A stretch of DNA of 64,000 bases. Source: Halorarum halophilum (lineage in GTDB: Archaea > Halobacteriota > Halobacteria > Halobacteriales > Haloferacaceae). Both the position numbers and the translations under genes were made by a program. Location: positions 2,728,001-2,792,000 of the forward strand of contig NZ_CP058529.1 in the NCBI RefSeq assembly GCF_013401515.1, written 5' to 3'. The notes beneath the pieces were generated by a model. That model was not told the DNA's origin and did not search any database. It saw nothing but the letters and a program-made list of their open reading frames with translations. The number at the start of each line of letters is the position of its first letter. The stretch's first letter is position 1. Below are positions 29,649 to 30,301 of the stretch, one piece after another.

Positions 29649-29724
29649 TTCGTGGGTGAGAGTCGCATACGGCGGCGGATTTGGAAACACAACCCTTACA
29701 AGCGGTGACCGTGTTCGCTTCGAT

Positions 29725-29799
29725 AGCGGGATGGGATAGCCAGGAGATTCCGCCGGGCTCATAACCCGGAGATCGGTAGTTCAAATCTACCTCCCGCTA
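29725..29799 (+). tRNA. Initiator tRNA-Met (anticodon CAT)
   Basis: A 75-nt cloverleaf with acceptor AGCGGGA (29725-29731)/TCCCGCT (29792-29798) and discriminator A29799. The anticodon stem is CCGGG/CCCGG around CTCATAA, anticodon CAT at 29760-29762. The A1-U72 end pair and the run of three G-C pairs at the bottom of the anticodon stem are initiator features. Its 3' 24 nt recur twice downstream. No intron, no CCA. Confidence 0.93.
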
Positions 29800-30068
29800 T
29801 GTTCTGCGACGCGCACTGCGAACGACGACCGAAGGGAGTCGTAAGCCGCGCGCCGCGTCGGGCGTCCGAGGTAGATCTGGAACAGGGAGTCGAGCGACCG
29901 TAGTTCAAATACTACCTCCCACTATACTTCCGGCGCACAATACAACGACGAGCGAAGCGAGTCGTGAACCGTGCGCCGGAGTTCGTGTCCGAGGTAGATT
30001 TGATAGTAGACGAGGCGCGCGCAGCGGAGCGAGCACGCCTCGGCGTGGTTCAAATCTACCTCCCGCTG
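29776..30068 (+). repeat. Tandem array of tRNA-Met 3'-end copies
   Basis: The last 24 nt of the tRNA (29776-29799) recur at 29900-29924 (one extra base, one change) and at 30045-30068 (two changes, one of them in the final base). The units between are 125 and 144 bp. Each also holds a related core that begins AACGACGA at 29821 and 29944; a third core begins at 30091. The core can form an ACGAC/GTCGT hairpin. Each extra tRNA copy is preceded by a partial inverted copy: GAGGTAGATCTGGAAC at 29868-29883 and GAGGTAGATTTGA at 29991-30003. CGAGGCG (30011-30017) pairs with CGCCTCG (30036-30042). The extra copies lack a tRNA 5' half, so they are not tRNA genes. Confidence 0.85.
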
Positions 30069-30301
30069 CCTCTCCGCGCGGTCGCTACCGAACGACGAAC
30101 GGGGCGTATCGTGAACCGTGACCGGCGAGTGCAACGAACGCAAGGATCGGGACGTTCGCTGTCGGTTCGGCTCCCCCGCTCGATTCTCGCCCGGTCGAGT
30201 TACCGGCGCGCACGTCCCGGAGTAGCCGCTGGTTAGGTCGGCTGCCGGCGAGCGCGGGGAGGCGCCGTCGCCGGGGAGTTCCGCTTCACGGCCGACTAAT
30301 T
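30069..30301. other. Gap with decayed third repeat unit
   Basis: Bases 30069-30130 repeat the start of the preceding units, with the AACGACGA core at 30091 and TCGTGAACCGTG at 30110-30121. After that similarity to the units fades. From 30130 to 30301 I see no gene. The DNA next to 30295 (actaattatg) may serve the GH5-like gene as promoter. Confidence 0.5.

Follow-up and report, generated by a model that had tools for sequence, protein, structure and literature searches.

A repeat array behind the initiator tRNA gene of Halorarum halophilum: a probable case of small non-coding DNA cassettes that stack at tRNA gene ends in Halobacteria

MITEs and REP/BIME repeats are short, non-autonomous palindromic repeats. 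In integrons, units are stacked at a single entry site, the recombination sites form hairpins, and exchange is modular. In M. kandleri, a palindrome of the type CGTTA-N9-TAACG follows roughly every second tRNA gene at a short distance, and it has been reported in this archaeon only. In haloarchaea, the SMR-A elements of Haloquadratum walsbyi represent non-coding units of ~110 bp, which possess terminal inverted repeats of their own and target palindromes, namely those of IS605-type elements and PATEs (PMC3119063). Larger elements use the tRNA genes themselves: tRNA arms are the usual targets of integrases, and the insertion of archaeal elements encoding integrases of the SNJ2, SSV and pT26-2 families is marked by a repeat of the tRNA 3' end (PMC8371274).

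Here, we analyzed an array that follows the initiator tRNA gene (tRNA-iMet) in a stretch of 64,000 nt (designated the window) from the haloarchaeal genome of Halorarum halophilum, which comprises 4.28 Mb in 4 contigs. This array is probably one case of a cassette family in Halobacteria, which consists of non-coding DNA and is stacked downstream of tRNA genes; a mechanism for entry, templating of the arms and turnover is proposed below. The coordinates are compiled in Table 1. A preliminary description had placed further copies of the tRNA-iMet 3' end at 29900-29924 and 30045-30068, in head-to-tail order with spacings of 125 and 144 bp, and had reported blocks of the type AACGACGA..TCGT at positions 29821, 29944 and 30091. 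Repeat analysis recovered these blocks as well as both tail copies at the claimed distances; the first copy contains one inserted A and a G to A exchange near its end, while the second is intact from the T-loop to position 72. Two elements had been overlooked: each tail copy is preceded by the T-loop and T-stem in inverted form (29868-29879; 29991-30003, the latter complementary at 13/13 positions), and a second palindrome is located between the tRNA and this T' arm. Since an inverted copy precedes each tail copy, each unit consists of two hairpins. The layout of a unit is tRNA end, hairpin A, T' arm, core and finally T-loop, T-stem and acceptor 3' strand. Hairpin B is made up of the short core between the inverted copies of the tRNA T-loop/T-stem, and its right arm continues to the tRNA 3' end. 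In unit 2, the T' arm is a perfect inverse of the tRNA-iMet T-loop (from its second base), the T-stem and two further bases, and as single-stranded DNA this unit is predicted to fold into two clean hairpins (z = -4.0). A partial A hairpin also closes many other arrays.

Table 1. Features of the array behind tRNA-iMet (positions refer to the window).
Feature	Position	Strand	Basis
tRNA-iMet gene (CAT)	29725-29799	+	Rfam RF00005, 60.5 bits; ARAGORN gives 29724-29800
tRNA-iMet T-stem; T-loop TTCAAAT	29775-29779 / 29787-29791; 29780-29786	+	read from sequence
Unit 1 hairpin A, outer stem CGACGCGC..GCGCCGCGTCG, inner ACGAC..GTCGT	29807-29860	+	sequence; repeat D2
Unit 1 T' arm GAGGTAGATCTG, inverse of T-loop and 3' T-stem with one mismatch	29868-29879	+	inverted repeat I6
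Unit 1 core, shortened, without most of the unit 2 core	29880-29903	+	sequence
Unit 1 copy of the tRNA-iMet 3' end, decayed	29904-29924	+	repeat D3
Unit 2 hairpin A CCGGCGCAC..GTGCGCCGG, inner ACGAC-GAGCGAAGCGA-GTCGT	29930-29979	+	DNA fold of unit 2
Unit 2 T' arm GAGGTAGATTTGA	29991-30003	+	inverted repeat I5, 13 nt, 100%
Unit 2 conserved core (GTAGACGAGGCGCGCGCAGCGGAGCGAGCACGCCTCGGCGTGG)	30004-30048	+	CM match, 96.3 bits
Unit 2 copy of the tRNA-iMet 3' end, 19/19, discriminator A to G	30049-30068	+	sequence, repeats
Decayed hairpin A after the last copy	30069-30125	+	repeat D1, third copy 30091-30120

The surroundings of the array and its counterparts in relatives were also inspected. For the accessory-looking genes that had been noted downstream, an island was not supported; the ORFs examined look ordinary (GH5-like, NosD/beta-helix and class IV aminotransferase). 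The proposed comparison at the tRNA-iMet locus revealed that the number of units varies, as 2, 1 and 0 units were present in three congeners (the window, L003 and L004, respectively). Within the window's genome, copies of the own tail (at least 17/19 identities, at most 600 nt downstream) were detected behind 8 of 74 tRNA genes, and the controls addressing upstream sequences, the opposite strand and the tail of another tRNA yielded 0 each. No tail copy was found behind the ~26 plasmid-borne tRNA genes tested in this genome. About 28 tRNA genes are clustered on a plasmid-sized contig of 149 kb (G000:C4:46225-59030, locus L304), where, unlike at chromosomal tRNAs, no cassette followed any tRNA tested.

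A 501-bp search of the genus located the core of unit 2 also behind tRNA-Lys, -Val, -Leu and -Ser, and each time the arms fitted the local tRNA. A covariance model (CM) built from eight units gave matches in 43/60 relatives with up to 29 matches per genome, many of them in tandem at a spacing of 110-145 bp. When named genomes were scanned for the exact pattern, it was present in Halorubrum, Haloferax, Haloarcula, Natrialba, Natronococcus, Halobacterium and others; matches in unrelated bacteria were not preceded by a tRNA and were attributed to chance. Within the phylum, 19/24 Halobacteriales matched, whereas none of ~124 other genomes did, and units were not found outside the class Halobacteria. 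We then carried out a census over the retrieved loci, which were picked by similarity, so that the prevalence figures are valid for the sampled genomes. The location proved specific for tRNA genes: 217 of 232 sampled units have a tRNA gene of the same strand at most 1 kb upstream, the first unit following at a median gap of 36 nt, and 35 anticodon types carry units. The 15 exceptions are mostly explained by locus edges, tRNAs missed by ARAGORN or displacement of the unit by an integrated element, and a few represent weak or opposite-strand model matches. In a Halorubrum-like genome (the genus being inferred from similarity to named Halorubrum loci), tail copies follow 16 of 31 tRNAs; one of these copies belongs to a second tRNA-Asp gene, a duplicate located next to the first.

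The units are fitted to the tRNA behind which they reside. With a threshold of at least 11/12 nt beyond the T-loop, the tail of the own tRNA was present in 182/217 units as compared to 6/217 for a random other tRNA; ~16% of the units fall below this match. The T' arm complements the T-loop and the 3' T-stem strand of its own tRNA, and complementarity drops to background from the acceptor stem on. At the variable position 57, standard pairs with the own tRNA are formed in 178/197 cases, as compared to 81 when partners were shuffled. A poor T' arm is nevertheless found in some units, e.g. in L080. Where the tRNA T-stem contains a G.U pair, T' follows the 3' strand, and T' is therefore a true inverted copy. 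A direct copy of the 5' T-stem strand was considered as well and rejected, as T' at the Halorubrum-like tRNA-Leu reads AAGGG and not GAGGG. An invertible core was likewise discarded: no full core was found in opposite orientation behind a tRNA, and the opposite-strand model matches were weak palindrome echoes or low-scoring.

Arrays differ in size and composition at one and the same site. Between tRNA-Val(tac) and the following conserved gene, Halorubrum-like genomes contain 0, 1, 2 or 3 units, and the locus lacking units (L349) represents an empty site. The distance between the last tail and the conserved gene is 38-82 nt in 13/14 of these loci, and the exception (L336) appears to contain an extra diverged unit. 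Arrays behind tRNA-Leu(taa) differ among species even though their upstream flanks are 88-93% identical, and at least four types of hairpin A are combined with at least four core types. Modules are also shared between tRNAs: an identical core of 40 nt is framed by Leu arms in L172 and by Val arms in L346, with the switch at TTCGAA on both sides. This was the only exactly identical core found common to Leu and Val loci, which in addition have a 31-nt A hairpin in common. Likeness of cores goes with the genome and not with the anticodon: the observed value was reached in 8/2000 permutations when assessed by genome, as compared to 387/2000 when assessed by anticodon.

Of the competing explanations, one dispenses with mobility altogether and takes the units as ancestral trailer repeats, whose variation would stem only from replication slippage, unequal crossing-over and the conversion of one tRNA locus by another. 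Polyploidy and frequent recombination are characteristic of haloarchaea, array change could be due to nothing but homologous recombination and gene conversion, and tandem copies are identical in the window's genome (G000; 122 bp) and in G017 (121 bp). However, this scenario has difficulties with the empty site and with the identical core between the arms of different tRNAs, where the junction homology of ~6 bp is short for ordinary gene conversion. We therefore regard it as somewhat unlikely. Neutral decay of old scars was dismissed, as the units are too similar and too reshuffled.

The second explanation assigns the units to the host as an RNA element, i.e. hairpins in the pre-tRNA trailer or a small RNA serving tRNA processing, folding or termination; an array of small RNAs had also been offered as an option in the preliminary description. 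The units are strictly located on the strand of the tRNA, mostly 25-60 nt behind it, and the orientation of the core relative to the tRNA is fixed. At some loci they are near-universal (18/18 examined loci for Leu(taa), 29/30 for Val(tac)), and a function for the host would fit this finding too. All helices of the unit covary strongly, with a score of 0.321 as compared to at most 0.061 in slid controls. Moreover, the predicted read-through transcript folds strongly (z = -5.6), whereby the acceptor strand of the tRNA would pair with the last copy. Since this fold would sequester the acceptor strand, it suggests that read-through is either rare or consequential. However, about half of the sampled tRNAs lack units, and copy number as well as core type vary between close species. 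The Rfam scan of the window detected only two tRNAs above threshold and no family matching the units. Mismatches in the stems show no preference for G.U over A.C: the ratio is 54:42 in units, where alignment error in the outer arms raises the A.C as well as the G.U counts, but 124:3 in the tRNA stems of the same loci (p ~3e-15). In the core helices alone, the ratio is 17:9 and thus still differs from that of the tRNAs. Despite covariation, the G.U tolerance of a structured RNA family was hence not observed, and the control against tRNAs favors complementarity kept as DNA over an RNA family. Judged from these mismatches, pairing within the unit appears to be maintained at the DNA level. A host RNA element, and with it the small-RNA array, is accordingly unlikely.

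The units are independent of integrases. The search for an integrase that had been recommended was negative for the window, and the three PF00589 matches of the genome are all located more than 420 kb away. In G001 (L225, G001:C1:2352000-2371999), a 9.4-kb element is inserted between tRNA-Val(cac) and the unit; it carries a frameshifted SAM/Phage_integrase gene and ends in its own 13-bp copy of the tRNA, CCGCCCCGATCCA. The loci of Halolamina salifodinae (L114) and Haloarchaeobius sp. (L113) show the same layout at the unit side, the tRNA itself lying beyond the retrieved stretch: the integrase gene, which is intact here, comes first, then a copy of the tail, and only then hairpin A. Thus, three integrase elements precede a unit and possess their own att copies, which argues that units are not the scars of integrases. 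The simplest reading is that the unit was present first and was then displaced by the integrating element. An integrase gene beside a unit in L007 had raised the idea that the unit is the attP of a tyrosine integrase; this candidate was abandoned, as the L225 element has a tail copy of its own. Among the elements at L225, L114 and L113, which carry their own copies proximal to the unit, there is none with an integrase whose attP contains a unit. A viral origin was also rejected: the search of IMG/VR with the core pattern returned two chance matches, both in unrelated viral contigs, and the phage collection gave no match to the core. In the plasmid collection, one core-like match was obtained on an 828-kb plasmid of Natronorubrum bangense (NZ_CP031306.1:202722-202789; 78% over ~60 nt, E 5e-6). 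Elsewhere in the window's genome, a Phage_integrase gene lies ~0.7 kb from tRNA-Leu(tag) (G000:C1:878308-879511, L298), likely as part of an integrated element.

Two further explanations invoke integrases. Spare tRNA tails might be kept by the host as decoys to divert integrases or to aid the deletion of elements; units do carry a near-perfect integrase target sequence and elements do integrate at these tRNAs, but in the cases observed the element precedes the unit, as it would if the tRNA itself had been the integration site, and a decoy would gain little, because integration at tRNA 3' ends rebuilds the gene. We consider such a role very unlikely. Weakest of all is the view that each unit is the remnant of a virus or plasmid that lost its body: every unit is bordered by direct repeats of the tRNA 3' end like attL and attR, as in tRNA-integrated elements, and integrases do use these tRNAs, but this is hardly credible given the near-constant unit size, the conserved modules, the presence of units at roughly every second tRNA sampled in one genome, the window devoid of an integrase, the mere chance matches in IMG/VR, and the nested layouts with units distal to integrase elements, which refute the general case. 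Of the attachment-scar array proposed initially, the notion that tail copies mark head-to-tail insertions at the tRNA end therefore holds, but not their origin from a series of viruses or plasmids.

Our preferred reading is that of stacking DNA cassettes, for which we propose the following mechanism. The core would enter and be swapped through recombination inside the universal T-loop sequence TTCRAAT, which could serve as the overlap of tyrosine recombinases acting in trans or as a site of short-homology recombination. Template switching at the core hairpin may subsequently provide the left arm with a copy of the tRNA tail, which would make the arms match any host tRNA. Template switching at quasi-palindromes is a known process making arms identical (PMC7202029, PMC8794818). 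As the right arm continues to the tRNA 3' end, each unit rebuilds a tail on which the next one can stack, and the number of tandem units would change by unequal exchange. No recombinase could be tied to the units, and neither an excised circle nor a fresh insertion was encountered. A more specific version, which we put forward tentatively, is a self-fitting cassette: a core of ~40 nt enters the TTCRAAT of any tRNA tail and takes its terminal inverted repeats from the tRNA at which it has landed. If so, one core type could colonize every tRNA gene of a genome and stack there as fast-reshuffled arrays. Concerning their role, the units are most likely small selfish repeats using the tRNA end as a safe site.

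How do the cassettes relate to the systems introduced above? They share size, lack of genes, terminal inverted repeats, targeting of palindromes and haloarchaeal hosts with SMR-A, from which they are set apart, on the basis of its description, by ends that copy the local tRNA and by stacking behind tRNA genes. With tRNA-targeting elements they have the repeat of the tRNA 3' end in common, but they carry neither integrase nor other genes, measure only 110-145 bp, possess the inverted T-loop arm and are stacked. The M. kandleri palindrome is similar in its position, but comes without copies of the tRNA tail and without arrays. Single entry site, hairpins and modular exchange are reminiscent of integron arrays, but the cassettes have no ORFs, a tRNA gene serves as entry site and no integron integrase is present in the window. 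Finally, unlike the ends of MITEs and REP/BIME repeats, theirs are not those of a transposon but follow the local tRNA and differ by locus, and the cassettes occur behind tRNA genes only; terminal inverted repeats common to all copies and to a transposon, as in MITEs, were not found. Since every known kind tested fails a defining feature, we call the cassettes new by their anatomy, and our search of the open literature retrieved no description of them. They appear to form a class of tiny tRNA-end repeats not described before, which in a well-studied class of archaea has seemingly been overlooked at a substantial fraction of the tRNA genes. The cassettes would exemplify host-matching arms generated by templating at the DNA level and rapid shuffling at the T-loop hexamer, as well as insertion beside highly conserved genes without harm. 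They will mislead searches for integrated elements that take a second tRNA tail as attachment site. All of these claims are directly testable in culturable haloarchaea.

Two minor observations concern the hairpins. One hairpin A in L354, located in the 379 nt that follow tRNA-Val(tac), is split by an insertion of ~250 bp, apparently a MITE or IS remnant that landed in the palindrome. At 29943-29965 of the window and in many other units, the hairpins are capped by CGA-N-C-GNA-G-N'-GAG, in which N and N' covary (29 GC, 28 AT, 5 CG, 2 GT and no AC); the inner GCGAAGC of these caps is known as a very stable DNA mini-hairpin.
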